Counted from the first letter of the stretch, positions 2,279 to 60,599 are shown. The stretch is DNA of 64,000 nucleotides from a virus (IMGVR_UViG_3300033992_001502:62001-126000); one strand, 5' to 3'. A program made the numbers and translations. The notes: a model not told the origin generated them from the letters alone.

Positions 2279-3247
2279 ATGGGAAGATTTGGTAAAAACA
2301 GAGTGCCTAATTTCATGAAAGGTAAAGAAGATGCAATTGGCGCTAATCCAAGAGTAGCTGATGAAAATTTGGATGAAATGCATCCAGTAGAAATAGTTTC
2401 ATTGGGAGATCATGGAGACGACCATGCAATGATCGTTATTAGAAGTAAATCAGGTGAAGAGCTTGAGCTTAGATTCGACTATGACGGTAACGGCATGCTA
2501 ACGGCAATGCACGGAGATCATGAGTACTCTATTCCAGTAGAACTTGAAGTTGTATCTGATGAAATTGACGAAAAACTTAAAGGTAAACAAAAGAACTTAG
2601 ATAAGAATCGAAATGGAAAAATTGATTCAGGCGATTTTAAATTACTTAATAAGTCGAAAGAGGATACTGAAGGTAAAGCTTCTAACACATTTGAAAATTT
2701 CGTTAATGAGTGTTGGTCACCAATGACCGAAGGCTACAGCCCAGCAATGTCAGAAGAAGCACAGAATGCAGTTAAATCAGTATGCGAAGAAATTCTAATT
2801 AAAGAGGCTCAAATGTGCGATGAAGACGCAGATCCTAACCATACATACGAGAATTACTTAAATGAAGTTGGCTCGTACATGAGTAAGTGTATGATGGAAG
2901 CAGCGGCTGAGGTTGATGTGGAAGAGCCGATTAACGAAAGAGCTATTCAATATCCAAAGGCTGGAGGAAAATGGGTAACACCAGATGCGAGTAAATACGT
3001 AGTATATGTAGGAAAAACCCCATATAAAGTAACGGTGAAGTCTCCGATCTACAGCGGCCCTATCATTATTCAACACATAGACGGTCCAAAAGAAGGTTGG
3101 ATGGGAAATTACTATACGGTAACTGATAGTAAAGGACAAACTAAAGACTTTGATGAAAGCGAAATTGCTGCACTTGTTAAAAAAGAAGGAAGTAATGTTA
3201 TTGAACTAGGCGGAGCATTAGGCAAAGCTATTTTTACTAAAGCTTAA
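2279..3247 (+). CDS. Putative virion protein with EF-hand loop and capsid-targeting-like motif
   Basis: A 322-residue protein of unknown family. Residues 108-119 (DKNRNGKIDSGD) match a complete EF-hand calcium loop, with acidic or Asn ligands at loop positions 1, 3, 5, 9 and 12, Gly at 6 and Ile at 8. Residues 138-144 read FENFVNE, one of the short F-x-x-F-V-x-E motifs shared by several late proteins here. Before this the protein is acidic; after about residue 225 a separate domain follows. A late-promoter element ends 18 bases before the ATG and a terminator follows the stop, so it appears to be a single-gene late transcript. A packaged or structural role is inferred from promoter class and motif only. 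Confidence 0.7.
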   Translation: MGRFGKNRVPNFMKGKEDAIGANPRVADENLDEMHPVEIVSLGDHGDDHAMIVIRSKSGEELELRFDYDGNGMLTAMHGDHEYSIPVELEVVSDEIDEKLKGKQKNLDKNRNGKIDSGDFKLLNKSKEDTEGKASNTFENFVNECWSPMTEGYSPAMSEEAQNAVKSVCEEILIKEAQMCDEDADPNHTYENYLNEVGSYMSKCMMEAAAEVDVEEPINERAIQYPKAGGKWVTPDASKYVVYVGKTPYKVTVKSPIYSGPIIIQHIDGPKEGWMGNYYTVTDSKGQTKDFDESEIAALVKKEGSNVIELGGALGKAIFTKA

Positions 3248-3270
3248 ATTCATAATTAAATATAAAACTA

Positions 3271-3297
3271 AAGCTCGGAACATTCCGAGCTTTTTTA
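3271..3297 (+). terminator. Rho-independent terminator
   Basis: AAGCTCGGA / TCCGAGCTT stem followed by a T run, after the EF-hand protein gene. Confidence 0.85.
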
Positions 3298-3314
3298 TTT
3301 AGGTTAGGCCGTGA

Positions 3315-3323
3315 ATAAATAAT
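3315..3323 (+). promoter_or_regulatory. Late promoter element ATAAATAAT
   Basis: Lies 4 bases before the ATG at 3328, so the transcript would be nearly leaderless. It follows a terminator by about 20 bases. Confidence 0.7.
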
Positions 3324-3327
3324 CAAT

Positions 3328-3585
3328 ATGGACAATCCACATAATAATAAAATGTCATCTGGTGAAATTACTGTACCAGCCAGTTCATTTCAACAAAGAA
3401 CTGATATGAATATTCAACCTACTCCAGTAAATGTGGCTGTGGGTGGGCTTCCTCAGCACTGGTTGAATACAGCGCCGTATTCTAAGCGAGATATGACAAC
3501 TAATTCGACTCCATCCAGAATCGGCTCAAATCCTAGAGTTTATAAAGTCCTACGATTTAACGAGTATATGGAATCTAATAAATAA
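3328..3585 (+). CDS. Small late protein of unknown function with C-terminal F-x-x-Y motif
   Basis: An 85-residue protein, low complexity and polar in its first two thirds, ending with FNEYME (77-82) and then SNK. That ending resembles the capsid-targeting-like motif found at the N termini of other late proteins. The late promoter element ends only 4 bases before the ATG, implying an almost leaderless mRNA. The terminal Asn-Lys-stop codons form the next late promoter. No family recognised. Confidence 0.6.
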   Translation: MDNPHNNKMSSGEITVPASSFQQRTDMNIQPTPVNVAVGGLPQHWLNTAPYSKRDMTTNSTPSRIGSNPRVYKVLRFNEYMESNK

Positions 3586-3586
3586 T
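3578..3586 (+). promoter_or_regulatory. Late promoter element overlapping a stop codon
   Basis: ATAAATAAT is made of the last Asn-Lys-stop codons of the upstream gene; the next ATG is at 3601. Confidence 0.6.
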
Positions 3587-3600
3587 AAAAAGTAACTACT

Positions 3601-3966
3601 ATGAGTAACAAAATTTTAAACTTCGACGATTTTCATAAAGGGTCTAACTTAAGCGATCCCAAGAAACATGCAACGGCCTCAAAACCTGATCAAGTTAAGA
3701 AAGAAAAAACAATTGATCAAGTTAAGAGTGCTGATCTATCTCAAGTTAAGGTAACTGAGCCTGATTACACGAAAGTATCTAAAACTCCTATTCAAGAGAG
3801 CTCAGCTGATACTCAAGCACAGATCGATATAATTAATCAGACCAAAGCACTTAGGGACCAAGTCGCAGCTGCTGCAACTGATGCAGAAAAGATTCAGCTA
3901 TTGACTAAAATCAAGCAGATTGAACAACAAGCTGAGCAGAAAGCAAAGGCTACTAAGACTGCATAA
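3601..3966 (+). CDS. Small Lys-rich coiled-coil protein, putative internal head protein
   Basis: A 121-residue protein. The N terminus ILNFDDF (5-11) matches the shared capsid-targeting-like motif. Three imperfect copies of D/S-Q-V-K (around residues 30-52) follow, then PIQES (about 61-65), which fits the T4 gp21 cleavage rule (Leu/Ile-x-Glu). The last 50 residues are Ala/Lys/Gln-rich and predicted helical. It has its own late promoter, formed by the end of the preceding gene. The family is not recognised; packaging is inferred. Confidence 0.6.
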   Translation: MSNKILNFDDFHKGSNLSDPKKHATASKPDQVKKEKTIDQVKSADLSQVKVTEPDYTKVSKTPIQESSADTQAQIDIINQTKALRDQVAAAATDAEKIQLLTKIKQIEQQAEQKAKATKTA

Positions 3967-3980
3967 AATTACTTAACGAA

Positions 3981-4721
3981 ATGACGTTAGACGAGTTAAT
4001 ATTAGACATCCAGGATGAATTAACGTTTGCAAAAGCGCTACCTTATTCTATTCCAGAACCAGAGATTAAACGTATCATCACTAATTCTGAGAGATATTTT
4101 TATGATAACTGGAAACATGCAGTTGAACCGCGATATTTACTGATTCCTCAAGAAGTTTTTACGTCTACTGGATTTAAGCAGCACAGAACGATTCAGTTAC
4201 CTGAGTGCGTAGGTTTCGTTCATGATGTTAAGCAGCCCAATTCTTCAGGCTCAATGTTTGGAACAATGGATGCGGATTTTGCGGATAATAAGTTCATTGG
4301 GTCAGAGGTATTTTTAACACCATTCATTGGGGAATCTATTATGTACAGAACGATTATCTTCTCGTTTCTTGACCTAGTTAAAGGCTTTACCATTGACACT
4401 TTTGCATACGACTACAATAAGAATACTCGAAAACTAACAATACTCGGAAGAACCCCTAGACAAAACGGTATTGTTCTAACGATCGCTAAGAAAATCCCAG
4501 CTGATGATCTGTATAATGATGAATTGTTTCAAAGATACGTAAGAGCAAAGGCTAAATTGAGACTTGGTGATCTGTTAACGACATTCGATTATAATCTTCC
4601 AGGCGGAATCAAACCTAACTACACAAATCTAGTCACTAAAGCTGAAAATGAGCTTACTCAAGTACTTGAAATGATGAAAGGCGAAAATACTCCAGACTTC
4701 TTGTACTTTGCAAGATGGTAA
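3981..4721 (+). CDS. Putative neck/head-tail connector or baseplate structural protein
   Basis: A 246-residue protein, 14 bases after the preceding gene and 7 bases before gp25, so it is cotranscribed with a baseplate gene. It is rich in aromatic residues with alternating strand-like segments and has no enzyme motif. Size and position suggest a T4 gp13/gp14 neck-type or baseplate wedge-type protein, but I cannot establish homology from the sequence alone. Its role as a virion component is more secure than any specific name. Confidence 0.45.
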   Translation: MTLDELILDIQDELTFAKALPYSIPEPEIKRIITNSERYFYDNWKHAVEPRYLLIPQEVFTSTGFKQHRTIQLPECVGFVHDVKQPNSSGSMFGTMDADFADNKFIGSEVFLTPFIGESIMYRTIIFSFLDLVKGFTIDTFAYDYNKNTRKLTILGRTPRQNGIVLTIAKKIPADDLYNDELFQRYVRAKAKLRLGDLLTTFDYNLPGGIKPNYTNLVTKAENELTQVLEMMKGENTPDFLYFARW

Positions 4722-4728
4722 TTAAGAC

Positions 4729-5118
4729 ATGGCAACACAACCAGTAGGAAAAGACCTATACTTACGAGCACCAGGCGATCCAAACTACCAAGAAGGTATT
4801 TATGAATCAAATGACTCAATTGAAAATGCTCTTCAACAAATTAGAATGACGCTACTTACTAGAGCAGGTGAAGTTCTTGGGGAAGATATTGGATTCAATG
4901 CCGAAAAGTATCTTTTTGAATTTGAGCAATCAGACATTAGCGCTATGGAAAAGGAGGCAAACGATCAAATTAATGAATATGTTTTATTCAGTCGACCTTA
5001 CTCAATTGCAGCTAATGCATTTAAAATGGACGATATATCTGATCCATATAAAGTAGGATTAGGCTTGGACATTAAGATAGACGGACAGTCTGCGTTTGCT
5101 ACAATGTTTGACCTTTAA
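4729..5118 (+). CDS. 25: Baseplate wedge protein gp25 (GPW/gp25 family)
   Basis: A 129-residue protein, close to T4 gp25 (132 residues). It carries the family signature in which a short tail-lysozyme-like fold begins with IENALQQIRM (about 27-36), followed by TRAGEVLG (40-47) and the conserved aromatic EKYLFEF segment. gp25 forms part of the inner wedge and helps initiate sheath assembly on the baseplate. It closes the operon that starts at 3601. Its last 20 bases overlap the 3' end of the convergent epimerase gene, with no terminator hairpin between them. Confidence 0.85.
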   Translation: MATQPVGKDLYLRAPGDPNYQEGIYESNDSIENALQQIRMTLLTRAGEVLGEDIGFNAEKYLFEFEQSDISAMEKEANDQINEYVLFSRPYSIAANAFKMDDISDPYKVGLGLDIKIDGQSAFATMFDL

Positions 5119-6022
5119 GCCAATCTTCTAATTTAATTAACGGGTTCCAATCAAGATACGATTTAGCGGCAGTGACGTCAGCTAAACTAATCTTCGGCTC
5201 TAATCTAAAACCTACATTTACCGTTTTTCCGCCAACCATTTCAGCGATTTGATTTACGCTGATATTTTCTCCACTTCCTATATTAATAATTCGGTGATAC
5301 TTATCTGAAGCGTTAGCGAGCGCATTGTATGCTGGTGAGTGTAATGCAGCAATATTTGCTCTAACTACATCTGATACGTGAATAAAATCTCTTCGCTGTT
5401 CTCCGTCATTTGTGATTGGTAAAGGTTTGCCAGCCTTAGCTTTTTCTAAAAATATTGGAATGACTGAGCGGTATGAACTGTCAGGATTTGAATTTGGACC
5501 GTAAACATTGAAATATCTAAGGCACGTCGTTTTTATTCTGTAAATTGAAGAATATAATTTGCAATAATTTTCCCCAATCTGTTTAGTTAACGCATAGGTT
5601 GAAATTGGATCAAGCGGTACAGATTCATTAGTTGGAAATAACTCAGTGTTTCCGTATACTGCACTAGTTGAGCTAAACACTAATTCCGATACACCAGCGA
5701 TTCGACACGCTTCAAGCACGTTTGAGGTTCCTATTACATTTACTAAATTATATAGAGTAGGTGATTCTAATGACTCCTGGACAGAAGTTAATGCGGCTAA
5801 ATGGAATACGCATTCTGAACCTTTAATGATGGCGGCGATCTTCTTGGGATCCCCTGTAATATCGTAGACTCTTAGGTCAATCGCTAAGTTTTTAATGTTG
5901 CTTTTCTTACCGGTCGATAGATTATCGATTACGGTTACTCGGAACCCTTGCTCTACGAGTGATTTAACAAGGTGAGATCCGATAAATCCGGCCCCACCTA
6001 TTACTGTTACTTTACGATTCAT
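5099..6022 (-). CDS. NAD-dependent nucleotide-sugar epimerase/dehydratase (GalE-like SDR)
   Basis: A 307-residue extended short-chain dehydrogenase. The Rossmann dinucleotide motif is GGAGFIG (9-15). The catalytic triad is visible as S118/T119, Tyr143 and Lys147 within YALTK, and the RYFNVYGP segment is typical of UDP-hexose 4-epimerases. It probably interconverts UDP-sugars for glycan assembly. It is the distal gene of a minus-strand late operon (gp4, gp2-like, portal), an odd place for a sugar enzyme. It may supply the glycosyltransferases at 32059-36856. The substrate cannot be read from the sequence. Confidence 0.88.
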   Translation of the reverse strand: MNRKVTVIGGAGFIGSHLVKSLVEQGFRVTVIDNLSTGKKSNIKNLAIDLRVYDITGDPKKIAAIIKGSECVFHLAALTSVQESLESPTLYNLVNVIGTSNVLEACRIAGVSELVFSSTSAVYGNTELFPTNESVPLDPISTYALTKQIGENYCKLYSSIYRIKTTCLRYFNVYGPNSNPDSSYRSVIPIFLEKAKAGKPLPITNDGEQRRDFIHVSDVVRANIAALHSPAYNALANASDKYHRIINIGSGENISVNQIAEMVGGKTVNVGFRLEPKISLADVTAAKSYLDWNPLIKLEDWLKGQTL

Positions 6023-6034
6023 GTATACCTAAAA

Positions 6035-7717
6035 TTAAAGTTGTCCTGGTGTTCCTACTTCAGATGAGGTTTCTCCACCAGCCGGTTCTTCTCCAGCTGG
6101 GGCAGCAGGCGCTCCACCAGCAGCAGCGGCTCCACCAGCAGCGGCGCCACCGTCAGCTTTAGCATCATTGTCTTGAGTTGCTTGGTAGCTTCGGTTTTTA
6201 GCAATATCCTCGTCACTTAATTTCAAGTATTCTTTAATTAAGTATTCGGTTGAGAAGTAAGGTTTAGCATCATCATTCACTACCGCTTTCATTGCATTAA
6301 GGGTAGCAAGACGTTTATTAAGTAATTCCTGAGTTTTAATCTCCTCGAATACATTATCATTGTGCCATAGCATACCTACTGCATTTGAGAAACGGTGATC
6401 CGTTTTTAAATCCTTAATATCTAAGCACATTTGCAAATACAGAGGTTTGGTGATTAACTCTTTGAAGGCTGATCTTAATCTCTTGATGAATTTATTGTAG
6501 CGAATCTCCTCTCTTGAAATACCTTCCGCATTCATAGTGTATGCACCTTGACCTTCTGACCAACGTGAATATGGAAGTTTAGAGTCAAGCTTTAGTTTAT
6601 CTTGAAAGTATTTTAATAATTCAGAGCCTGATAAATTTGGGCCTGGATATTCAAGTGCTTCAATATCGATTTTCTCGCCTCTATCGTTTACTGGAAGAAC
6701 GTAGTTTTTATAGAAAAGAATATTAGGTTTTCCATCAACCATTAATTCTCCAGAGCTACCATCGAATGTTATATCTTCTTTTAAGGTATTGGTAAACTCA
6801 CGAACATCTTCTTTGGCTTTTTGCATTGATTTTGTTCCAACTGGTACGCTTGTTTTTAAACGAATTGGCGCATTCATTGTATGCCAAATAATCTTAGAGT
6901 GTTCAATTAAACGAAGTAGGTTAAATGAACGAAGTAGTCTCTCTACGAAACTAACTCGCTTGGTTCTAAATTCATTTGAATATGAAATGTAGATAATTTG
7001 TGAATCAGTTAAGGTACGATTCATCTTATTAATGGGATCACGTTGAGACCATTGCAGATAAATTTTTCCGCCTGAATCTTTTTTTACTTCAGGATAAAGA
7101 GTAGATGGATCTAATTCCTTAAATCCAATAATATCTTTTGGATTTGAGATATTGTCGTAAATGATTTCAAATGCCAAGTGACCTTCAATTAACCATTGGT
7201 AAAAGTACTGCCATGCTGAAATTCCTCTGTCGAAACTCCATGCACTATAGATCTTTGCAAAATTTTCTTGGTACTTCTCAATTACTTTTTCTTGATAGTT
7301 AAGACGTTGGTCTTTATTCTTTCCTCGGTAATTAATTTCTCCAACTAGGTCATTTGGATAACAGAATCGATTATCTTCATCGTATACAATTGCATCATCT
7401 GCAATAGTTTCAATAACGAATTCAATTTCGCCATTTGATGCAAGATCCCTAAGTCTCTCTCTTTTCTGAACATAGTCTAATTGAAAGAACGCGATTGACT
7501 TGTTCTTTAATGAGGATGTCGTATCGGATAGAGCAAGAGTAGCCTTCATCAGATCATCTCCCATTGCGTTGTTGAAACCCGTTAACTGACCTTCAATGTA
7601 ACCTATCGCTTGTGAGTTCTTCACAAGAAGGTCATCGTATTTCATACCAAATCGACTTAGTGCGGTTAAGCTTGATCTAAGCCCTTTCATTGGGTTACTG
7701 TCTAAAAATCCTGCCAT
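6035..7717 (-). CDS. 20: Portal vertex protein gp20
   Basis: A 560-residue protein matching T4 gp20 in size (524 residues) and conserved segments: an early IETIADDAI region (about 104-112), WQYFYQWLIEG in the wing/stem region and EYPGPNLSG followed by a Leu-rich stretch. Twelve copies form the DNA channel at one capsid vertex and nucleate prohead assembly. The last 45 residues are an Ala/Gly/Pro-rich acidic tail not typical of T4, probably disordered. It is encoded on the minus strand with gp4, away from gp21-gp23, unlike the T4 order 20-21-22-23. Confidence 0.92.
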   Translation of the reverse strand: MAGFLDSNPMKGLRSSLTALSRFGMKYDDLLVKNSQAIGYIEGQLTGFNNAMGDDLMKATLALSDTTSSLKNKSIAFFQLDYVQKRERLRDLASNGEIEFVIETIADDAIVYDEDNRFCYPNDLVGEINYRGKNKDQRLNYQEKVIEKYQENFAKIYSAWSFDRGISAWQYFYQWLIEGHLAFEIIYDNISNPKDIIGFKELDPSTLYPEVKKDSGGKIYLQWSQRDPINKMNRTLTDSQIIYISYSNEFRTKRVSFVERLLRSFNLLRLIEHSKIIWHTMNAPIRLKTSVPVGTKSMQKAKEDVREFTNTLKEDITFDGSSGELMVDGKPNILFYKNYVLPVNDRGEKIDIEALEYPGPNLSGSELLKYFQDKLKLDSKLPYSRWSEGQGAYTMNAEGISREEIRYNKFIKRLRSAFKELITKPLYLQMCLDIKDLKTDHRFSNAVGMLWHNDNVFEEIKTQELLNKRLATLNAMKAVVNDDAKPYFSTEYLIKEYLKLSDEDIAKNRSYQATQDNDAKADGGAAAGGAAAAGGAPAAPAGEEPAGGETSSEVGTPGQL

Positions 7718-7725
7718 TTAATTGT

Positions 7726-8391
7726 TTATTTTATTTCAAATAGAGAGAAACTTGATCTAGCCGATATTGTCCTGTCAGTTGAATAGTTCGCTAAGTGTAA
7801 GTTAGGAACAGTATCCCAGTCGATAAGGGTTAAGTTTCGCATCTTTTCTCTATTGTATTTATTCACCAGAAGATTGAATTTAATGTCCGGCATTCCAAGT
7901 AGGGTCTTTATAAATGTCGTATCGACCGTAAAAAATGGAGCAACTGCTCGTTCCCTGATTCGTTTATTAAATTCCATTAGGTTGCCGTCTTCAAAACAGT
8001 TAGCTAATGGAGTACTCATTTTATTTAAGTATGTCCGAATAAACCGTTTTCTTAGAGGTTGGGACATTAATTTAACATTTAGGCCCAATCCATCAGGGCT
8101 TAATGCTAGAAATATGGGGCGGTTATCATAATACGGCTTCTTTACTCGATATTTTGCAGCAAGGGCCACATCTTTTACGGAAGGATATTTAAGTAATTCG
8201 TATTCGTCCCAAGTTGGAACCTGATCTGGCCCAATTGGTTCAAGTTCAGTATGAGTATAAAAATGACCAGGAATCAGAATAGTACGGTCTCCACCACGAG
8301 TCATATTTATGAATACGTGATTTGGGTTTGGACTAAAGTCCGGGTCTGTTCCGTTTTGATAAAAGTCTTGTATAGTTTCTAATTGCGTCAT
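7726..8391 (-). CDS. 2: Probable DNA end protector protein gp2-like
   Basis: A 221-residue protein between gp4 and the portal. It has the pattern I associate with gp2-like proteins of T4-type marine phages: a PYYDNRP segment (about 92-98), then DGLGLN (104-109), then an NKYNREKMRNL...WDTVP segment near the C terminus. gp2 binds packaged DNA ends and protects them from host RecBCD-like nucleases after injection. T4 genes 2 and 4 are neighbours, which supports the call. There are no catalytic motifs. The family match is from memory and could be wrong. Confidence 0.5.
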   Translation of the reverse strand: MTQLETIQDFYQNGTDPDFSPNPNHVFINMTRGGDRTILIPGHFYTHTELEPIGPDQVPTWDEYELLKYPSVKDVALAAKYRVKKPYYDNRPIFLALSPDGLGLNVKLMSQPLRKRFIRTYLNKMSTPLANCFEDGNLMEFNKRIRERAVAPFFTVDTTFIKTLLGMPDIKFNLLVNKYNREKMRNLTLIDWDTVPNLHLANYSTDRTISARSSFSLFEIK

Positions 8392-8400
8392 TTATATCTT

Positions 8401-8907
8401 TTATATTGATTTGAACAGAAAGTTTTCGGTTATTATCCCAAATTTTAAACCTCTTACTGAAGCGAACTCTTTAGCTGCTTCAAATTTTGCCTGATTTACA
8501 ATGTATTGCTTGGCTGCATATACATAACTTGCAGTTTGCTTGTCAGTCATTCTTGCTGGGGCAGTAGGTGGTTTGGTATACTTGTCAGGCTTTACCTCAA
8601 TTAACCAAGACTGCTCCTTTCCTGAGCTATCTTTGGTTACGATATAAAAATCAACATAATATGTGTGTCCGCGTTTATCAAGAGGAGAATAGTAAGGAAT
8701 TCCTACTGGTTCGCTTGAGTATTTAATAACAGTCGGGCTGTGATCACACCATTTTAGGAATTTGAATTCCCAGCTTGATCTGAATATTATTTGCGAAGTA
8801 TCGCCAACGTACTTCTCAGGGAACGCTGGTTTAAAGTATCCCTGACGGATTGTTCCAGCTCGCGGTTTTAAGAAAGTCTTGATGCTCTTCTGCTCTTTCG
8901 GTTTCAT
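8401..8907 (-). CDS. 4: Head completion protein gp4 (TnsA-nuclease-like fold)
   Basis: A 168-residue homologue of T4 gp4 (also called gp50), with the N-terminal FLKPRAGTIRQGYF segment and FRSSWEFKF (42-50). Candidate restriction-like nuclease residues are Glu47, Asp86 in YVDF and Glu104/Lys106 in IEVK. The protein acts late in head maturation, after packaging. It is first in a minus-strand late operon with the gp2-like, portal and epimerase genes; a perfect TATAAATAAC late element lies 3 bases upstream of the ATG and overlaps the primase stop codon. Confidence 0.9.
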   Translation of the reverse strand: MKPKEQKSIKTFLKPRAGTIRQGYFKPAFPEKYVGDTSQIIFRSSWEFKFLKWCDHSPTVIKYSSEPVGIPYYSPLDKRGHTYYVDFYIVTKDSSGKEQSWLIEVKPDKYTKPPTAPARMTDKQTASYVYAAKQYIVNQAKFEAAKEFASVRGLKFGIITENFLFKSI

Positions 8908-8910
8908 ATA

Positions 8911-8920: not shown

Positions 8921-10040
8921 GGTACGCCATGTCAAACACGGAATCGCTAAAATAACTATTGATCCATTCATTAAAGCTTTCAATTGAAGTATTTGAATTT
9001 CTGTCATGCATGTAACAGAAAAGGTCATTAATATCTTTGACTTTTTGTAGAGCCATCATATCTTCAGTAGAACTAAATTTTCTCTTTAGGTCACCGATTG
9101 CTTTATTCCACAAAAACACAGAGTATCCTTGCTGGATAAAATTCATCATTTGAGTCTTGCCTGCCTTATCTCGGTCAAATATAACTTGAGTAGCACCCTT
9201 TGACCCTAGATTAGAGAAAATACTTCTGGCTTTAGATGCACCAGAGGTTGCAATCGCGTTAGTTATGAACATTGAATCGAATTGACCCTCAGTCATTCTG
9301 ATTGGCTTGCTGAAGTCAACGTTCAAGATATTGAAGTAGTTATTAAGAAAGTTCGCATCTTCCACCAGATCCTTCGAGAGTCCTATCTGAGAGAAGATAT
9401 GAATAATATCGGAATATGACTTGATTATGTACTTACGTTCGGAATTTGGATCGAGACTTCTAATTGAGAATCCTAGTATTTTACCGGATCTTCTATCGAA
9501 ATTAAAAATATAGACTTTATTATCGGATGAATCAGTATAGAGACAATCTCCGAAATCTTCAATTAAGTTGATCGCTCGGCCCTTTATGTACTGATACGCT
9601 CTAGATTCTTCTGAAACCATATCAAGTCTCTTTAACGAGAACCTATTGATTACTTCAGTTATTGTAACAAGACTTGATGTATCGGATGTTAAGAATCTAA
9701 TTAATTGATTCTCTGTCTTTTTGGGTTTTGCAACTGGTGAGTATTCTGTATCTAGGATAAAGCTTGGAAGCATGATTCCATGTTCCTTACTCATTCTGGC
9801 AACAAATTCTCCCATGGTCATATATGCCATACAACCATCATTAAAACATTTATAAGCCCCAGTATCTAAATAGAGGTTACCACGCTTCTTTGAAACCTTC
9901 TTGTCCGAGTCTCCGCAAATTGGACACGCGAAATTTAGCTTACGGCCAGTCTCTCCATCAATTTTTTGTTTCTCAGGAACATCGTGGAATCTCTTACGTA
10001 ATAAGGTTTCAATGAATGCGGTTATTTCCTCAATTCTCAT
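8916..10040 (-). CDS. 61: DNA primase gp61 (DnaG/Toprim type)
   Basis: A 374-residue primase. An N-terminal zinc ribbon has C39-P-I-C42 and C65...C70. A Toprim domain follows with TEGQFDS as the glutamate motif and FDRDKAG as the aspartate motif. It synthesises RNA primers with helicase gp41 (50501-52039). The start codon overlaps the last 11 bases of the DNA-polymerase C-terminal-half gene, implying translational coupling. T4 gp61 is 342 residues, so the length fits. Confidence 0.9.
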   Translation of the reverse strand: MRIEEITAFIETLLRKRFHDVPEKQKIDGETGRKLNFACPICGDSDKKVSKKRGNLYLDTGAYKCFNDGCMAYMTMGEFVARMSKEHGIMLPSFILDTEYSPVAKPKKTENQLIRFLTSDTSSLVTITEVINRFSLKRLDMVSEESRAYQYIKGRAINLIEDFGDCLYTDSSDNKVYIFNFDRRSGKILGFSIRSLDPNSERKYIIKSYSDIIHIFSQIGLSKDLVEDANFLNNYFNILNVDFSKPIRMTEGQFDSMFITNAIATSGASKARSIFSNLGSKGATQVIFDRDKAGKTQMMNFIQQGYSVFLWNKAIGDLKRKFSSTEDMMALQKVKDINDLFCYMHDRNSNTSIESFNEWINSYFSDSVFDMAYL

Positions 10041-11655
10041 CAGTTATAGTTACCTTCTTTACAGGTTTTGGTTTAGTTGCGTTTTTGTAAGCTTTGTCAA
10101 GATCGTATCCCATTTTGTAGTAATCCTTTCCGGTTTTAACAGCTTTTTCGTACTTGTCAGTTTGCAACCATGAACCACCAGACGGAGTATTGATTATTTC
10201 GCTCCAGCCATTCGATCTTAAGTATTCTTGCATCACTTCAACTGGAATTGCAAATGGATCTTCTACTTCAATTCCTAATTTCTTTGCTACTCGATCGCGA
10301 TACTTAGTAAGTTCGTGTTTTGGAACGATTACTGTATTTAGGCCAAATTTAGAAATTGCTGAAATGTAAACTGGGAATAAATTCGCAGGTACCGGCTTGT
10401 CTGGATTACCAATGTATTCTTGGCAGCTTTCCGGAATTTCAGAATAGGCTAGAGTTTTTGAGTCAACTGCATACAGTGGGAAAGTTTCTTCGTTTGTGAA
10501 TTCTTTGCTACGGCTTCTTGATTTAACAAGTTCAACTTTACGAACAAGGGCTGAAGTTAATTCCGGATAACCCATTGCAACTAATAATTTATTAATTGGC
10601 TCAATGATTAATCGGAAGAACTGTTGATCTCTATCCATAGGCACTGCGAATTCTTCTGGATAAGAGCCTGGAGCGTACGCAAAAATATCAAATTCATACT
10701 CATTCGGCGAAGCATAGTAAAATTTAATCTTTGAACCGCTTCGTATCAATGCATACTTTTGATTTTTGGTTTTCTTTATCACGTGATTGTGATATGCAGC
10801 AGCTCTACCGTAAATCGGCATTCCTTTCTCCATTACTAATGGATTTAGGCTCTTTAGGTAATCTTCGTAAACTCGAACTGAGAAGTTAAAAGCAATCTCA
10901 TCGACCGTTAGCGAATTACACTCGTCTTTTAGAGCCTGTAATTTCGGAATCAAGTCTTCTTCAAGATCCAAGTTATACCCGATTCCTAAAAGATATGAAT
11001 ACAGCTTTTGTAAGTGCTGTCTTGCCCAAATTGGATAGGAAGCTTGAATTGCTTCAAGACCCTTAATGATTAATGATTCTTTATCAAGTAGTCGTTCGTG
11101 CTTATTATCTTTATATGATACGCTTAAGATGTATTTCTTCTTAGCGAGCCAGATTCCTGAACTAGAAAGATTTTCAAGCTCAAAATTTTGGCGATTGTCT
11201 GTGTTGAAATGAACTGCGTATTTCTCAAAAGCTTGTTCAAAATAATCCTTTAATCGGTTTCGGTTAATTGCCAAACAGAACTCAAGAGACTCTTTATTAT
11301 CTAAGTCTAATCCTTCTACTGACTGAATTGCATAATCAAAACAGACATACACAGAGTCAGTATCTGTGTAAATTGCAGCTTCTTTTTCAATTTGAGAAAC
11401 TTTTTTGTCTGAAATTCCTAAAATTTCATGAAGTTCAGTATCTAGGTGCCACTTGTGCTGAAAGTAGTGATTTACTGCCCGGATTGAGAATTTAATTAAA
11501 TCTTGACCTTGTAGAGTAATAGATTTAGCTATTTCGTTATTATGAAAATAGAAATATCGGTTACCGAAGGCACCATAGAATGAGTTAATTAAGATTTTAA
11601 TTGCATTCTGCTTTAAATCTAGTGATTTAATTTGCTGTTCTAACTGTTTTGACAT
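10030..11655 (-). CDS. 43B: DNA polymerase family B, C-terminal half (gp43B; palm and thumb)
   Basis: A 541-residue fragment starting in the fingers helix. It holds polymerase motif B (K20-x3-N24-S25-x-Y27-G28) and motif C YTDTDS (96-101), the second metal-binding catalytic site, followed by thumb. It lacks the exonuclease domain and motif A, which are in a separate gene at 54829-56211. The two proteins must assemble to give an active replicase. It has its own early-type promoter (AAACC-N18-TACAAT) and overlaps the primase gene. There is no sign of decay: the reading frame is intact and the C terminus is natural. Confidence 0.92.
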   Translation of the reverse strand: MSKQLEQQIKSLDLKQNAIKILINSFYGAFGNRYFYFHNNEIAKSITLQGQDLIKFSIRAVNHYFQHKWHLDTELHEILGISDKKVSQIEKEAAIYTDTDSVYVCFDYAIQSVEGLDLDNKESLEFCLAINRNRLKDYFEQAFEKYAVHFNTDNRQNFELENLSSSGIWLAKKKYILSVSYKDNKHERLLDKESLIIKGLEAIQASYPIWARQHLQKLYSYLLGIGYNLDLEEDLIPKLQALKDECNSLTVDEIAFNFSVRVYEDYLKSLNPLVMEKGMPIYGRAAAYHNHVIKKTKNQKYALIRSGSKIKFYYASPNEYEFDIFAYAPGSYPEEFAVPMDRDQQFFRLIIEPINKLLVAMGYPELTSALVRKVELVKSRSRSKEFTNEETFPLYAVDSKTLAYSEIPESCQEYIGNPDKPVPANLFPVYISAISKFGLNTVIVPKHELTKYRDRVAKKLGIEVEDPFAIPVEVMQEYLRSNGWSEIINTPSGGSWLQTDKYEKAVKTGKDYYKMGYDLDKAYKNATKPKPVKKVTITDEN

Positions 11656-12602: not shown

Positions 12603-13392
12603 AAGACTCCATACATTTTCACAATTTATTCTAGAAAGAGGTGATTGGAATTACGCAAATCACTATGCTCAATACCTAAATAAGTTCACAGAAGATTCTG
12701 TTATATTGGATCTACTTAAAGACTTTGATAAACAGGTTAATGAATTGGAGGATACTTACTGGTATAATAGAGAAAGTCGAAATTTTAGAAACGACCATTA
12801 TGCACTAGACATGAAAATCCACTCATACCCAGATGTACAGAAATGGGCAGCACTAAAAGGATATTCAGCTGAGGAAATTGAAGAAGATGAGTCGTCATTA
12901 GAATCAGCAATGTGGGATCAGTGGGGTAGATTCATGGAAGAGACTTACGAAGTTAATTCAGAAGACTATATGAATACGTATGACTGGTTAACTAAAGTTG
13001 GAGTAGGGGGCCAAAGCGGAGGCTGGCTATTACTAGCAATGGAGGACAGTCATTCTGACTTGGAAAGAATTCTAGAAGATAAATTCGATATGTACTTAGA
13101 AGAAGTAGCAGACGCAAATGCTGGATCAATTCAGTTACTAAAACAAATCATTGAAAATCCAGAAGAGACTGCTGAGCTCATTGAGTTTGGAATAATTGAT
13201 GAAGAGACTGCTGCTAAAGCAGAGGAGATTATTGAAGCTCGAGATGAAGTTGAAAACTGGTTACGTGAAAAACTGAATGAATTGTATCAAATAGAAAGGG
13301 ATCTTGATGCAATTAAAGATGATATTAATAGATTTAGACAGACTGCATTAGCTGATTTTTACGTATGGACCTCTGATTCAGAAGACTATTAA
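12592..13392 (+). CDS. Acidic putative internal head protein with N-terminal targeting-like motif
   Basis: A 266-residue, strongly acidic, mostly helical protein. The N terminus FSQFILE (9-15) fits the capsid-targeting-like consensus and ends in Ile-Leu-Glu, a candidate gp21-type cleavage site. The last 100 residues form a Glu-rich coiled coil. It is the last gene of the 11727 late operon and converges with uvsW, overlapping its end by 4 bases. No known family recognised; packaging is inferred from the motif. Confidence 0.6.
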   Translation: MLGKRLHTFSQFILERGDWNYANHYAQYLNKFTEDSVILDLLKDFDKQVNELEDTYWYNRESRNFRNDHYALDMKIHSYPDVQKWAALKGYSAEEIEEDESSLESAMWDQWGRFMEETYEVNSEDYMNTYDWLTKVGVGGQSGGWLLLAMEDSHSDLERILEDKFDMYLEEVADANAGSIQLLKQIIENPEETAELIEFGIIDEETAAKAEEIIEARDEVENWLREKLNELYQIERDLDAIKDDINRFRQTALADFYVWTSDSEDY

Positions 13393-14954: not shown

Positions 14955-15395
14955 TTAATGCCCGTCTAGGAGCTTTTGTACGTCTAATCTGGTTTTAATA
15001 CCAAATAGAACTGCGTCAATTGTTTTAATGGAATCTGAGTAAAAAGTTATCTGATTTTCAACCTGTTCGATCTTTTCTTTAAGCGAGGCGGTCTTTCCAT
15101 CAACTATTGTATTCTTTTCATTAGCGCCATACCTCATTTGATGATTCTTTGATGCATCGATCCACTCTTCACCCTTCTTTTCACGGAAAGTCTTCTTAAG
15201 TTGAGTAAAGTGCTCAATAAGAGTGTGATTCTCCTCAAGCATTCTCTGCCTTAAGCTAAGAAATGTCACTTGAGCCTCAGGAATCTTACGAATGTGCTCG
15301 AGAAGTTTGATTCCTACATAGATTTCGCCAGAGAACGATTCTCGTTTCTCTCTAAAAACTTCAGCAATAGTTCTTTTTGGGGTAGTTTCTTCCAT
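14955..15395 (-). CDS. Unknown early coiled-coil protein
   Basis: A 146-residue, charged, helical protein; residues about 55-125 look like coiled coil. No enzyme motif or known family. It is the first gene of a two-gene operon with uvsW, 15 bases upstream of it, and sits behind a good early-type promoter (AAACT-N16-TAAAAT). A role in replication or recombination is suggested only by this context. Confidence 0.6.
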   Translation of the reverse strand: MEETTPKRTIAEVFREKRESFSGEIYVGIKLLEHIRKIPEAQVTFLSLRQRMLEENHTLIEHFTQLKKTFREKKGEEWIDASKNHQMRYGANEKNTIVDGKTASLKEKIEQVENQITFYSDSIKTIDAVLFGIKTRLDVQKLLDGH

Positions 15396-15401
15396 ACCTA
15401 T

Positions 15402-15428
15402 ATTTTATCAAAAACTTGCAGTAAGTTT
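15402..15428 (-). promoter_or_regulatory. Early promoter AAACT-N16-TAAAAT
   Basis: Boxes at 15428-15424 and 15407-15402; serves the 146-residue gene and uvsW. Confidence 0.6.
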
Positions 15429-15898
15429 TAACTGATAAAGCAATAATATAGACTTTCGATTTGATAGAAGTCACTATTGAACTCTTGAATTATATTACTT
15501 GAGTAAATTGAATCCCCAAGTTCATGATGATCACCGTTTGTGTAGAAGACAGAGACGCCTCCATCGTAAAGGCATACAACTGAGTCTAATTTATAGTGCT
15601 GAATTGACCCTCTAACCATCTCCTTGAATTGCTCATGAGATACGTCAGAACCCTCATTAGTAACAAAGATACTAGGAAATGATCTCTTGATCCGGTGGCC
15701 GCTATTTTCTATTGAATTTAGTATTTGTAGCACATAAGGCAGCTTGCCATAGTCATCTAGGTCTTTTAGGACTTGATTGTACTGTTTTGAATTAGTAAAG
15801 TTATAAATTACGAAAGGTTTTTGCGCCTGCACACAGTCTCTAACCAATTGATAATGGTTTCCATCGTATTCTCTTGTTTTTCTTAGCGATCTGTTCAT
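15428..15898 (-). CDS. Unknown protein (156 residues)
   Basis: A soluble alpha/beta-looking protein with no recognised motif. It is divergent from the RNA-repair-like cassette. The 51-base divergent intergenic region carries a late-type ATAAATAACC on this strand (15926-15935) and an early-type promoter on the other, so the two sides may be expressed at different times. Confidence 0.55.
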   Translation of the reverse strand: MNRSLRKTREYDGNHYQLVRDCVQAQKPFVIYNFTNSKQYNQVLKDLDDYGKLPYVLQILNSIENSGHRIKRSFPSIFVTNEGSDVSHEQFKEMVRGSIQHYKLDSVVCLYDGGVSVFYTNGDHHELGDSIYSSNIIQEFNSDFYQIESLYYCFIS

Positions 15899-37890: not shown

Positions 37891-37900
37891 TATAAATAAT
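37891..37900 (+). promoter_or_regulatory. Late promoter element TATAAATAAT
   Basis: Perfect element 18 bases before the TTG start of the protease-scaffold gene. Confidence 0.75.
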
Positions 37901-37918
37901 CAAAAAAGTCTGATACAA

Positions 37919-41708: not shown

Positions 41709-42074
41709 ATGAGCAACACCGTTTTAAATTACGCACAATTTCTTTTAGAGAAAAAAGCGATCAACCAGGAAATGGCAGATCTTCCTAAGGGTAAAGGTTC
41801 TAAATCTAACAAGTCAGTTAATGCTGAGATGAAAGAACTTCCTAAAGGTAAAGGTTCTAACTCAAATAAAACTGTTAAACCTGAAATGGCAAGTCTTCCT
41901 AAAGGTAAAGGTACAACTAGTACAAAAACAGTTGATACTAAAACTTCTAAATTGCCTACTAGCAAAGGTACGGCTTCTAATAAAGTAGTAGATTCTAAAA
42001 TGGCGAAGATCGTTATTAAAGGAAATGCTATTAATAAGAAAGTTGAGCCTAGCATGGCTAAAATGCCTAAGTAA
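41709..42074 (+). CDS. Basic repeat protein, putative packaged internal protein
   Basis: A 121-residue, strongly basic protein. The N terminus YAQFLLE (8-14) is a capsid-targeting-like motif ending in Leu-Leu-Glu, a candidate gp21 site. Residues 19-121 are about 5.5 tandem units of 19 residues, best copies LPKGKGSKSNKSV, LPKGKGSNSNKTV and LPKGKGTTSTKTV, decaying toward the C terminus. Small, basic, repetitive and following the capsid gene under its own late promoter, it looks functionally like a T4 internal protein that enters the head with DNA. There is no sequence homology that I recognise. Confidence 0.65.
   Translation: MSNTVLNYAQFLLEKKAINQEMADLPKGKGSKSNKSVNAEMKELPKGKGSNSNKTVKPEMASLPKGKGTTSTKTVDTKTSKLPTSKGTASNKVVDSKMAKIVIKGNAINKKVEPSMAKMPK
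41763..42071 (+). repeat. Tandem ~57-base units coding 19-residue basic repeats
   Basis: About 5.5 units with the core L-P-K-G-K-G-S/T-x-S-N-K-x-V; the first three are well conserved, the last two degenerate. Confidence 0.85.
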
Positions 42075-42094: not shown

Positions 42095-42400
42095 ATGTCA
42101 GATAAAAATAAAAACAGACTAACTCCATTTAAACAGTTCGTAATTCAAGAGAATTCTATAAAGGATTTAGTTGGAAAATCAGACGACGAGGAATTGGATT
42201 TAGATGATGCACGTAGCATCGGAAAGAAAATTTCACGTATGAAGGGCGAAGATCGTAAGAAATTCGTAGGGATTGTCAATTTCATGGGAGCTTCATGCCG
42301 AATCTATAATGAGATTTGGGCAAATTACAAGCCAGTTGATCCAACTAAGAAAAAATCCAACCGCGGAAAAGAATTCCAAGGCGAAAAAGAAATAGGATAA
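42095..42400 (+). CDS. Small late protein with targeting-like N terminus
   Basis: A 101-residue protein with FKQFVIQE (12-19), one of the clearest examples of the shared motif, ending in Ile-Gln-Glu. An acidic patch (29-38) follows, then a basic helical region containing KKISRMKGEDRKKF. It is in an operon with the basic repeat protein (20 bases upstream) and the next gene (3 bases downstream). No known family; a packaged protein is inferred. Confidence 0.6.
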   Translation: MSDKNKNRLTPFKQFVIQENSIKDLVGKSDDEELDLDDARSIGKKISRMKGEDRKKFVGIVNFMGASCRIYNEIWANYKPVDPTKKKSNRGKEFQGEKEIG

Positions 42401-44054: not shown

Positions 44055-44708
44055 ATGGACATGTTTAACGTAAAACGCAGAGATAATCCTTCTATGGATC
44101 GATACAGTGACTTGAAGAAGCCTGCATTCGGAGGTCCCAAAGAGAAGGAAGACTTTGATAAATCAAAAAGAAAATCACTTGATGGATACCAACGAGTAGT
44201 CGACAGAAATGCCGATTTTGAAGGTGGAAAATTCAATCATAATTATGACACGACGTGGAAAGCAGTAACTCGTGACTTAATCTCAAGAACTGCTAAGAAA
44301 AAACCATTTGACCCTATGTACGCAAAACCAACAATCGCAACAGTTGACGCTGTTGAAGAAGGAAAAATTAAACGTTTCGAACAATTCGTAAACGAAAATG
44401 AAGGCTATAACATGTTCGCAGAAGCTGAAGAGGAAGCTCCAGAAATGGAAGAGACTCCAGAAGAAGGAGCAGAAGTAGAAGAAATTGAAGTAGACGAAGA
44501 GCAATTAGAAAATCTAATGGCTGATTTCGGAGAAGATCTTGAAGCTATGATCGAAGATATCGCTGAAAAGATGGAAATTGAAAAAGAAGAAGTTTGCAAT
44601 CTACTTTGTGCAGCTGTTAAAAAACTTTGTTTAGAAGAAGAATCTGAAGAAGGTGAAGAAGACGAGAACGAAGAAGAAGAGAACGAAGAAGAAGACGAAA
44701 TGATGTAA
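44055..44708 (+). CDS. Acidic-tailed late protein with internal targeting-like motif
   Basis: A 217-residue protein. The first 90 residues are basic; FEQFVNE (108-114) is an exact match to the shared motif, now internal; and the remainder is extremely acidic, ending in a Glu/Asp run broken by CNLLCAAVKKLC (196-207 region). It follows the tail tube gene by 21 bases and ends at a bidirectional terminator. It could be a core or assembly protein. No known family recognised. Confidence 0.6.
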   Translation: MDMFNVKRRDNPSMDRYSDLKKPAFGGPKEKEDFDKSKRKSLDGYQRVVDRNADFEGGKFNHNYDTTWKAVTRDLISRTAKKKPFDPMYAKPTIATVDAVEEGKIKRFEQFVNENEGYNMFAEAEEEAPEMEETPEEGAEVEEIEVDEEQLENLMADFGEDLEAMIEDIAEKMEIEKEEVCNLLCAAVKKLCLEEESEEGEEDENEEEENEEEDEMM

Positions 44709-54828: not shown

Positions 54829-56211
54829 TTAAGCCACTTTATCACTGGACAATTGTTCTTCTAATTTTTTCATTTCGTCCTTAGTATCAACACGACCATT
54901 GTATAGTCTTGTTAAAATAGTTCGAGCAGCTGAATCGTATTTCTTAGTAAATAACGTGTCGTTCTTGGTTAAGACCTGATCAATCGTAGGTTCTTGACCA
55001 GCTTTAATTTTTCCACCGTATGAATCTGGTGAAATATTAAATTGGATTTGGATATTGGGATACATTGAGGCAAAGTCAAAACATGAAACGTATTTGTAAT
55101 ATCCAGGTTCAGGCTTAGCGACGTATGCTCCATCGTAAGTTGCATCTTCTTCTAATTCTCTTCGGTCGTTTGCCATATACAAACCTCTTTCTAAGAATTC
55201 ACGACACATTAGAGTTTCAGTAATGAATACTGCAGAGAATACTTTTGATACATCGACCTTTGCAAACTTGGAGATAGCGAAGGCTACATCAAGCAATCCA
55301 AGCTTATCTTCAATTAGTTTAACTAGAATTGTATCGATAATGTTATACTTTGTAAAGTTCTCAACGTCTTGCTGAGCTTCCATCATTGTTGCATATTCAC
55401 TATGTAATTTAGTTGTTCCTAATACTAAATTTGCAATGTAATCTAACTTGTAATTCTCAACTACTTTGTAAGGTTTAGTATTCATAAACACTTCCATGTA
55501 ATCCAGAAGTCCTAAGTGAACTGGCATTTTGGCCTTGCCGATTAGGGTTTTAGAAGGCATGTTTAACATTGGTTCAATTCCTAAATTCTTACAACGATTA
55601 ATTAAATACAACCAGTCAAATCCAATTACGTTCCAGCCTGTTAAGAAAGGAATCTTTGGAAGAACTTTGTGAAAGAAAGTTTTCATTAAGTCTTCTTCAT
55701 GTTCAAAGAATAGGTGCTTAACTACGAACGTTTGCTCATGCGCTTTAAAATAATCATTTACTTCGTCTTCTAGTCGAGTAACTACATCAGGTGCAAGATC
55801 TCGCATAGTTGACATTACGAAACATACGTTATCTTCATTTACGAAAGTAATCATATTAACCGGCATTGCGGCTTTAGCTGGATCTGGGAAATCTTGAGAA
55901 ATAAGCTGAATCTCAATATCCAGATAGTATTTCTTTGGGCTATCATCTGAATAAATTGAAGCGAGCTCAGTTTCGGCTAACCTAGTTTGAGTTAACTCTT
56001 CAAGCCTAAATCGACTTAACCATTTTCCTTGAACCTTCTTTAGGAATCTTCCATCCCAATTTCTATGTTCAGTTGGAGTTGGCGTTAGATTCCAGTTGTA
56101 CAGGTCATGCGGAAGTATTGGTTTCTTCATGAATCCGATATTTCCATCTGGTTTATAATATGAGATTAGAAGAGCTGAGTCTTCTGTGTGAAATTCTGTA
56201 CTTACAATCAT
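54829..56211 (-). CDS. 43A: DNA polymerase family B, N-terminal half (gp43A; exonuclease and motif A)
   Basis: A 460-residue protein with a complete 3'-5' exonuclease: Exo I D98-I-E100, Exo II N194...F198-D199, Exo III Y289-x3-D293. It then has polymerase motif A DFASMYPN (379-386) and the start of the fingers, ending naturally with a charged helix. Motifs B and C are in a separate gene 43 kb away (10030-11655). Proofreading and half of the polymerase site are thus on one polypeptide. It follows the dUTPase-like gene. Confidence 0.93.
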   Translation of the reverse strand: MIVSTEFHTEDSALLISYYKPDGNIGFMKKPILPHDLYNWNLTPTPTEHRNWDGRFLKKVQGKWLSRFRLEELTQTRLAETELASIYSDDSPKKYYLDIEIQLISQDFPDPAKAAMPVNMITFVNEDNVCFVMSTMRDLAPDVVTRLEDEVNDYFKAHEQTFVVKHLFFEHEEDLMKTFFHKVLPKIPFLTGWNVIGFDWLYLINRCKNLGIEPMLNMPSKTLIGKAKMPVHLGLLDYMEVFMNTKPYKVVENYKLDYIANLVLGTTKLHSEYATMMEAQQDVENFTKYNIIDTILVKLIEDKLGLLDVAFAISKFAKVDVSKVFSAVFITETLMCREFLERGLYMANDRRELEEDATYDGAYVAKPEPGYYKYVSCFDFASMYPNIQIQFNISPDSYGGKIKAGQEPTIDQVLTKNDTLFTKKYDSAARTILTRLYNGRVDTKDEMKKLEEQLSSDKVA

Positions 56212-59800: not shown

Positions 59801-59906
59801 CGTTGACTTCCCAAGAGGTATTCACAAGTTCATCAATCGTATTACAATCACAAGAGCTGGAGGTCAATTGGCTTCTAACTCAACAGGATTTACTCCTTCA
59901 TTCTAA
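56874..59906 (+). CDS. 18: Tail sheath protein gp18, enlarged
   Basis: A 1010-residue protein with the sheath N terminus (YKASGVYTVEIDES) and a conserved C-terminal half with RGFHVPAMVVDE, YAAYFMPNL, FGVMIFSNNTGYQRVRSALN and IHKFINRITITRAG. T4 gp18 has 659 residues; the extra ~350 lie in the middle (about 100-620), probably surface-exposed insert domains. It contracts to drive the tube into the host. Two or three overlapping late promoter elements precede it, consistent with high expression, and a bidirectional terminator follows. Confidence 0.9.
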   Translation: MAEKLNLNRYKASGVYTVEIDESTNLSLPLSTGRLVIGSSKKGPINSVVLVNDNRSLSAVYGETDTKLEKNGSFFHRTIDVALRQGPVYALNLLPIADTDVAYFTTFNTESASNNSTWSANLYQDSISRFYNTQKLWFADVDAVNKYKNLALGDTFPATGTIDKDANKILSLVNLSKKAVTAWARIADTTGYDIKVKEYYQLLGDRVEVPEFLHPDDYVADYFVELAVVDGDWTDYIRLSTDPIYRQYFTANGIILSKLDDFLSLRDVVVVNRTIGAIIPDFKDLAGSTASLDTLFNRKFSSSNVFCAIDYKKVDLIDLTSSTFNSGSSTEPIAQQRIDLVGHGFGELNTTDGSKTLYTVDNGISGTDPIALIDVLSYKKSAGYEYYFELDGLAHSTTLAAGETYTMNTGGDLYITATQGSKLYEAWANGFVKAGDTLHYLAAPSSTPTTLYLGTDNLVKTQTTGQIKYIEFTAYSDITRTNQVDAQYITDGALELLHIKSTVVNQFNYEFDLTSSAFFNTVGANNYQYFSPNQLVFTLNTNLYGNVAKKETVNLAYDSARRALIDGFFVPGQYIKAKIATDANGDNVIRDRVLKIKSVYAQLISVPVGPSSTPTKTLKYTITVDNAYDANVQGIDLTGQTVKVYKGIKNYVTNLRGFHVPAMVVDETALYPNGTASRQDEILDYMFDSTNIASTLADNETLDYRYIIDSYEGQISNASKQQLVQLAANHGKALAICNAPSLAQYEKSSDPSFIDFNTNLVSAEYISTGGNLSSNPAFTFGFATGDKNGIAISTYAAYFMPNLLIFEGGKNKSIPPAAFVANTYMKKYSSGNTFSIVAGKRGIITEAEVTGLEYDLTDDDRAYLEPVGFNLIVRRRGFGVMIFSNNTGYQRVRSALNNVHVREALVTIERDVERILLNFLFEFNDPTTRLRVKTLVKNYLTAVQDARGIATFDIVFDDSNNGPEVLENNAGIIDIIVDFPRGIHKFINRITITRAGGQLASNSTGFTPSF

Positions 59907-59925
59907 GGAATACATTAATAAAATA

Positions 59926-59959
59926 AAAAAGGACTCTAGTAATAGAGTCCTTTTTTTGT
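59926..59959. terminator. Bidirectional terminator after sheath gene
   Basis: AAAAAAGGACTCTA - GTAA - TAGAGTCCTTTTTT. Confidence 0.85.
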
Positions 59960-59960
59960 T

Positions 59961-60011
59961 AGGGCCGACTTGGAAGTCGAATTCCACCACTTGGTTTAAG
60001 TCCAAGAACTA
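59961..60011. other. Hairpin-rich intergenic stretch after the sheath terminator
   Basis: Contains CTTGG-TTTAAGT-CCAAG (5-bp stem, 7-base loop) and CGACTT-GG-AAGTCG. It looks tRNA-like but lacks a complete cloverleaf; no gene is called. Confidence 0.4.
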
Positions 60012-60599
60012 TTAGTCACGACCGGTCATGATCTCTTCCATAACTCTAACTGTATCAGTTGAATCGTTATGTAAGATACCCGTTCCGCCGTGCTCAATCC
60101 ATTTCTCCAATTTCTTTTTAAAATCGTCGATTAGAATGTCTTTTTCGCTAGTTGCGTACTTCCATTTGTCTTGATCTAGAACAAGCCTAGTATCAGGAGT
60201 CATATCCGCTGGGTCAGTTACTGGCTCTTGGTCAATTCCTAAATTTGAATTTACCCAACGAGTCTTACCAATAAGACACTCAGGACTACGGCTTGGTGCA
60301 GATAATAAAATTGGGTCATATCTTTGTAAGTAATCCCATAATTCTCTGCCGTCTTTGGTCCATTGTAGGTTAGCCCAGAAGTCTGCTCCTAACTTATCCA
60401 GTAATGGCCAAATTGAGTTCTTTCCGTTTTTCTTTTCGTATTCCTTAGGTGAAAGATTTTCAGTGTTTTCTTCAATATCTTGAAAGCCTCTATCAAAATC
60501 GACAAGGACTCCATCTAAATCACAGAACACTCGATATTTACCCTCTTTACCTTCGTTTACGAATTGTTTAAATTTCTTAAGCATTTTCTTTAAGTTCAA
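60012..60599 (-). CDS. HAD-type 5'(3')-deoxyribonucleotidase-like with targeting-like N terminus
   Basis: A 195-residue HAD protein: FCDLDGVLVDFD (25-36, Asp27 and Asp29), LLSAPSR as motif II, and LIDDFKKKLEKWIEHGG near the end, as in phage and bacterial 5'(3')-nucleotidases. The N terminus FKQFVNE (10-16) is an exact shared motif and is the only strong example on the minus strand. Met6 (60584) may be the true start. It overlaps the GroES gene by 23 bases. Confidence 0.75.
   Translation of the reverse strand: MNLKKMLKKFKQFVNEGKEGKYRVFCDLDGVLVDFDRGFQDIEENTENLSPKEYEKKNGKNSIWPLLDKLGADFWANLQWTKDGRELWDYLQRYDPILLSAPSRSPECLIGKTRWVNSNLGIDQEPVTDPADMTPDTRLVLDQDKWKYATSEKDILIDDFKKKLEKWIEHGGTGILHNDSTDTVRVMEEIMTGRD

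Follow-up and report, generated by a model that had tools for sequence, protein, structure and literature searches.

A short T4-like tag on many proteins of a 271-kb jumbo phage and its huge-phage relatives probably marks them for carriage in the virion

The 64,000-nucleotide stretch of DNA analysed here, called the window below, corresponds to positions 62001-126000 of the virus record IMGVR_UViG_3300033992_001502 (270,962 bases), from a 271-kb jumbo phage. It holds T4-type head genes together with genes whose proteins share a short, mostly N-terminal peptide of the form aromatic-x-x-aromatic-aliphatic-x-Glu, which resembles the capsid-targeting sequence of phage T4 and is referred to as the tag. 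Coordinates are those of the window unless marked "record", and ORFs are named by their first coordinate. Genes were called over the whole record and all 284 of them were tested for the motif. The head genes are a gp21-like prohead protease followed by a gp23-like major capsid protein:

37883-39904, plus strand: gp21-like prohead protease with a scaffold-like helical region as fusion partner (PHROG 207, E 1.7e-37)
38915-39229, plus strand: eight strict tag-like repeats of the YSEYLGE type, 14 residues apart, in the scaffold-like region
39922-41589, plus strand: gp23-like major capsid protein (PHROG 138), with a candidate cleavage site INE/S at residues 51-54

When 24 kb of the window was compared with phage records at the nucleotide level, no match was found. 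At the protein level, the protease and the capsid protein are closest to those of uncultured huge phages (LR756500-LR756504 and LR745206, 462-735 kb), to which the Lak phages are added for the capsid protein only. A 735-kb genome was described in a survey of huge phages (PMC7162821).

The protease matches T4 gp21 in both fold and family; its structure model matches 5jbl (Foldseek E 3.8e-9), and the DHP and SSRA motifs are conserved. The gp21 fold is followed by a predicted long helix made of 14-residue repeats (e.g. YSEYLGEKVNQNIN), each of which holds the aromatic-x-x-aromatic-aliphatic-x-Glu pattern, and then by a conserved helical domain. The same architecture is present in LR756501, LR756502 and LR745206, is degenerate in LR756500, and is found in most of the best 80 related viral contigs, where tags such as MKHIKLFEQFISEE or MKKIKTFETFLNES often stand at the starts of adjacent genes. 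As with T4 gp22, the helical scaffold adjoins the protease and capsid genes, the likeness being one of position and predicted helix. Unlike in T4, however, protease and scaffold-like region form a single fusion protein here, and the scaffold-like part is built of 14-residue repeats. These repeats suggest a possible binding place for a T4-type tag. When capsid-protein N termini were compared, I/M-x-E followed by Asn or Ser was seen in the corresponding region here and in LR756501 and LR756502, and it is a candidate cleavage site in all three.

A first-pass annotation had listed 14 peptides from the window, described them as F-x-x-F/Y/W-V/I/L-x-E, and proposed that they mark a large set of packaged proteins. 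All 14 were found in the ORFs named; six of them, NFDDF, FNEYME, FSNYME, FENFLE, FKAFNE and FNEFV, do not fit that description exactly. The repeats in the 37883 ORF and the tag of a gene at 63757 come in addition to this list. The comparison with shuffled proteins, set beforehand as the refutation test, came out in favour of the tag. The strict motif, [FY]xx[FWY][VIL]xE within residues 1-25, occurs in 19 proteins of the whole record against a mean of 0.8 (maximum 4) when each protein was shuffled, and with a preceding [KRHQ][LIV]xx there are 13 matches against 0.24. The first aromatic lies at residues 5-9 in 19 of the cases. A leave-one-out profile of 13 columns, with shuffled N termini as the null, marked 33 of 283 genes at a 5% false discovery rate, roughly one gene in nine, and the larger part of the tagged set lies outside the window. 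Two of the 33 (record 131975 and 233910) are weak and probably wrong; on the other side, the tag of the 41709 protein is absent from the set because the gene caller chose a later start. Information in the profile peaks at F/Y (2.76 bits, column 0) and F/W (2.90 bits, column +3), with 0.86 bits at the aliphatic column and 1.83 at Glu; V, L or I stands at the aliphatic column in 23 of the 33 and E at the final column also in 23. After the tag Glu, Ala is enriched 5-fold and Ser 2.7-fold in six genomes. The motif also emerged from a scan that presupposed none, in which all spaced residue pairs in residues 2-21 were set against stretches further along in each protein: K....F ranked first and F..F second in this record, and the top pair was F..F in LR756501 and a 238-kb relative and K....F in LR756502. 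The segment has the character of an amphipathic helix, and alignment of the tagged proteins gave no common body, as the annotation had claimed of these otherwise dissimilar proteins. The N-terminal tags that lie in the window, and the gene that runs past its end, are as follows:

3622-3633, plus strand: tag-like FDDF of the 3601 protein, lacking the Glu for cleavage (q 0.39; ATAAATAA upstream)
12616-12636, plus strand: tag FSQFILE of the 12592 protein (profile q 0.0; only near-identical copies elsewhere)
22955-22972, plus strand: tag FENFLE of the 22934 protein (q 0.001; tags on homologues)
23400-23417, plus strand: tag FKAFNE of the 23373 protein (q 0.0; homologue L249 has QVKSFGQFINE)
41730-41750, plus strand: tag YAQFLLE of the 41709 protein (kept in nine homologues)
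42128-42151, plus strand: tag FKQFVIQE of the 42095 protein (q 0.087; aromatic spacing in most homologues)
60552-60572, minus strand: tag FKQFVNE of the 60012 deoxyribonucleotidase (q 0.0; 13 diverged homologues)
63757-64000, minus strand: 3' part of a gene with the tag MIKRFSQFIYE just past the window end (record 125757-126482; q 0.0)

The nucleotidase had been predicted to belong to the tagged set, and this is supported: MLKKF[KD]QF[VIL]xE is kept in all 14 readable ORFs compared, its own and those of 13 diverged homologues. The aromatic spacing of the 3601 protein is kept in ten homologues. In L135, another homologue of the 23373 protein, the tag is apparently not N-terminal but internal (ESKVLRFSSFLNEAKNPA), after an acidic stretch.

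The columns that carry the profile are those that matter in T4. The T4 internal proteins IPII and IPIII start with MKTYQEFIAEA and IPI with MKTFKEFTSTTTPVSTITEA. Mutations in IPIII have shown that targeting depends mainly on residues 4 and 7 and processing on residues 8 and 10, and that Asp at residue 10 blocks processing and not targeting (PMC9026906). The tag described here is likewise a short N-terminal segment, with aromatics where T4 residues 4 and 7 lie and aliphatic-x-Glu where residues 8 and 10 lie. In both phages it is found near residues 4-10 of proteins that are otherwise unrelated and is accompanied by a gp21-type protease. The T-even phages are reported to have at least 10 internal proteins with a capsid-targeting leader, and T4 proteins that bear this tag are injected (PMC12373910). 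There are also differences: about 30 genes are tagged here and 24-62 strict cases occur in relatives against three in T4 (0.6 in shuffles), and here a few extra residues often precede the first aromatic (MKHIKLF). In SPN3US and other phiKZ-like giant phages a large set of head proteins is processed by the prohead protease and ejected (PMC5694885). This phage is similar in having a large set of putative head proteins that would be processed by its prohead protease and may be ejected; the phiKZ-like phages, however, have mostly propeptides of more than 100 residues and no confirmed gp22 counterpart, whereas the tag here is about 10-16 residues. A further T4 protein, gp61.1 (NC_000866 18966-19130, locus L276, 54 residues, hypothetical), starts with MKTFKEFIKEDMVAGDSGG, which looks like another capsid-targeting sequence.

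The tags are enriched in all five related genomes. Strict N-terminal counts were 24 against 3.1 in shuffles for LR756500, 62 against 4.0 for LR756501 and 26 against 3.1 for LR756502, and in two IMG/VR records they were 30 against 1.2 (246 kb) and 28 against 1.0 (238 kb). The jumbo phage PAU of Sphingomonas has a gp21 homologue, but no such repeats were seen in it; its count was none against 0.7. Since iterated profiles drifted in the 642- and 735-kb phages, taking in at least one tail-sheath-like protein, we relied on the strict counts (26 and 62) for these two. Reciprocal best hits between this record and three huge phages gave eight pairs tagged in both members, where 1.1 were expected, and 32 pairs with one member tagged, some of whose "untagged" members have weaker versions. 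From these numbers the tag seems to be gained and lost on conserved proteins.

Outside the window several tagged proteins have recognizable functions:

record 969-1814: tagged lysozyme
record 7603-8748: tagged nucleotidyltransferase-like protein (weak match)
record 14961-15512: tagged Acb1-like 2H phosphoesterase with HxT motifs
record 218314-218784: tagged NUDIX protein
record 231508-233116: tagged VanY peptidase and an adjoining peptidoglycan-binding protein

The Acb1-like protein falls just under the Pfam cut-off (E 1.8e-5) and also matches PHROG 755, named RNA ligase (E 2.3e-10); one of its HxT motifs aligns with T4 57B. Its homologues on other contigs have differing versions of the tag, e.g. 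MKNIRLFEQFVKD, MIKKFTEFVNE and MHKFTSFKNWLSE, and in still others the tag is partial or absent. In the huge phages the tagged proteins include leucine-rich-repeat, methyltransferase, PPK2, PNK-phosphatase and T4-type RNA-ligase domains. By our reading, none of the replication and tail-structure genes in the window is tagged. The downstream part of the 23373 protein (23884-24320) matches PHROG 7595 and that of the 24337 protein (24337-24834) matches DUF5824 / PHROG 3041, both of function unknown; these parts could be the cargo domains that are set free from the tag. Near the two ends of the record (record 266849-270455 and 969-8748) there are nine tagged genes whose starts are of the MKHIKLFE type; in a circular or permuted genome they might be a single cluster.

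The octamer ATAAATAA closely resembles the core of the T4 late promoter. Of the 33 tagged genes, 17 have it in the 60 bases upstream, compared with 30 of the 251 others (p 6e-7). The record contains 78 copies, of which 64 lie outside genes, mostly 12-39 bases ahead of a start. Copies also stand before the tail sheath gene, the protease gene and further genes that we read as structural, and the octamer looks like a late promoter. At record 139686 there is a weak homologue of gp55, the late sigma factor of T4 (E 7.5e-7).

We consider it highly probable that this phage uses the motif as a T4-type capsid-targeting sequence across its proteome, with docking, cleavage, packaging and at least partial injection. 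A T4-type tag on a large set of proteins had been the central proposal of the first-pass annotation, and the profile columns, the protease, the conservation and the five related genomes support it well. In the mechanism that we propose, tagged proteins would be made late, and their short amphipathic tag would dock on a prohead core built by the gp21-like protease together with its attached helical scaffold, whose 14-residue repeats hold the aromatic-x-x-aromatic motif. The capsid shell would then close around the core, and the protease would cut after [VIL]-x-Glu in tags, scaffold repeats and capsid protein, so that mature cargo is freed and the scaffold is broken down. DNA would be packaged around the cargo, at least part of which would enter the next host with it. 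We strongly infer packaging and cleavage of the tagged proteins, and we infer their docking and injection. They are probably carried in the virion and may be injected into bacteria.

The principal alternative is that the tag is a docking and cleavage signal of the prohead core only, and that tagged core or scaffold parts are degraded or expelled and never injected. One protein in particular fits such a role:

44376-44396, plus strand: internal tag FEQFVNE of the 44055 protein, at residue 108, before an acidic tail (kept in eight homologues)

This copy, the exception among the internal and C-terminal ones of the record, has the top profile score in the whole record, and the layout, an internal cleavage-type motif and then an acidic tail, is that of T4 gp67. 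Several other tagged proteins are strongly acidic past the tag, and injection cannot be read from sequence. The 44055 protein and a few other tagged proteins are indeed more likely core components than cargo. However, many of the tagged proteins are enzymes without an obvious core role (lysozyme, VanY peptidase, NUDIX, nucleotidase and Acb1-like), and the T4 proteins with the tag are injected, as cited above. We therefore think it improbable that a core signal is the whole explanation. Still less probable, in our judgement, is that the motif is a signal for sorting or interaction that has nothing to do with the capsid, such as one for a membrane, a replication compartment or a chaperone. The amphipathic character of the motif and the diverse functions of the cargo would suit such a signal; nevertheless, the motif is repeated in the protease-scaffold protein, its conserved columns are those of the T4 tag, and it is absent from PAU, whose gp21 homologue comes with no repeats. 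A third explanation is that the shared N termini are recent duplicates of one gene start with no common function, which the very uniform tags in some relatives, e.g. MKHIKLFEQFISEE in the 246-kb genome, might suggest. In this record it is largely refuted: nucleotide identity within the tag is 0.519 against 0.492 expected under independent codon choice, identity downstream of it falls to 0.285, and the upstream DNA of tagged genes is no more alike than that between other genes. By these comparisons the tags here are not recent DNA copies, and we give duplication hardly any credence. In favour of chance matches is that the internal and C-terminal copies as a class are near the shuffled rate, but for N-terminal tags, at 19 against 0.8 here and 24-62 against 1-4 in the five relatives, chance is refuted and its probability is negligible.

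Several observations weigh against the capsid-targeting proposal or narrow it. What was observed is the enrichment of the motif, its agreement with the T4 tag, its repeats in the protease-scaffold protein, its conservation and its presence in relatives; docking, cleavage, virion presence and injection are predictions. The last position of the tag is Asp in four of the 33 profile members (one among the weak calls) and G or another residue in other members; because they have no Glu, some tagged proteins may escape cleavage. Confidence in the protease structure model is low over the repeats, and Tyr-x-x-Tyr prevails in the scaffold repeats where Phe/Tyr-x-x-Phe/Trp prevails in the tags. The association of promoter and tag was not reproduced in relatives with the same octamer, core ATAAATA, and ATAAATAA therefore supports late expression in this record only. 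Finally, the rate of C-terminal and internal copies as a class was near that of shuffles in the four genomes tested, with C-terminal copies slightly raised in one of them, LR756501. The first-pass annotation had held that the tag is sometimes internal or C-terminal. That part stands for a few proteins by conservation and not by overall frequency:

2690-2710, plus strand: internal tag FENFVNE of the 2279 protein (not significant alone; conserved F[EQ][NS]FV; ATAAATAA upstream of the gene)
2846-2866, plus strand: second internal tag YENYLNE of the 2279 protein (conserved as YE[NTS]YLNE)
3556-3573, plus strand: C-terminal tag-like FNEYME of the 3328 protein (aromatic spacing in most of 11 homologues; ATAAATAA upstream)
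22896-22916, plus strand: C-terminal tag FADFIKE of the 21375 protein (not significant alone)
24577-24603, plus strand: internal tag-like FSEWVEINE of the 24337 protein (Pfam DUF5824; kept in three homologues)

The scores of the copies in the 2279, 3328, 21375 and 24337 proteins are not above shuffles, yet these copies are conserved in diverged homologues. Both copies in the 2279 protein are kept in homologues at 54-66% identity, and LGFADFIKEQNNL at the C terminus of the 21375 protein is identical in four homologues of 55-67% overall identity. Two other members of the list fared worse. For the C-terminal FSNYME of the 12330 protein no diverged homologue was found and the tag has no support, and the suggestion that the ligase-like 17100 protein is tagged was not borne out, there being only a short internal FNEFV and one informative homologue.

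The capsid-targeting principle is already known from T4, and the system described here is an expanded variant of it. We lean towards the view that huge T4-like phages have a general protein-loading system in which a repeat-studded protease-scaffold recruits dozens of tagged proteins, some 60 kinds in the 735-kb phage, so that about a tenth of the genome may encode pre-made effector cargo, such as the Acb1-like enzyme and RNA-repair domains, that is delivered with the DNA and swapped by gaining or losing a label of about 10 residues. The literature searched yielded no description of the tag in these huge phages, of tens of tagged proteins in one genome, or of a protease fused to a scaffold with the motif in tandem, although subscription papers were poorly covered and an earlier report is possible. 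The head contents of giant phages are mostly unknown because few of these phages can be grown. With the tag, candidate virion and injected proteins, most of them unannotated, can be ranked from sequence in genomes of up to 735 kb. The tag also suggests that counter-defence enzymes, the Acb1-like protein among them, may reach the host ahead of any phage gene expression.

Two further observations concern other genes. A second ORF with many motifs in LR756501 (21458-26533, minus strand, 1691 residues) has seven FVKYxIE-type motifs, 58-61 residues apart, near its C-terminal part; it was considered as another scaffold and set aside because the repeats are about 60 residues apart and late in the protein. 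In the window, by our reading, a B-family DNA polymerase is present as two ORFs about 43 kb apart, both on the minus strand: 54829-56211 is the N-terminal half, with the exonuclease and the DFASMYPNI motif, and 10030-11655 is the C-terminal half.

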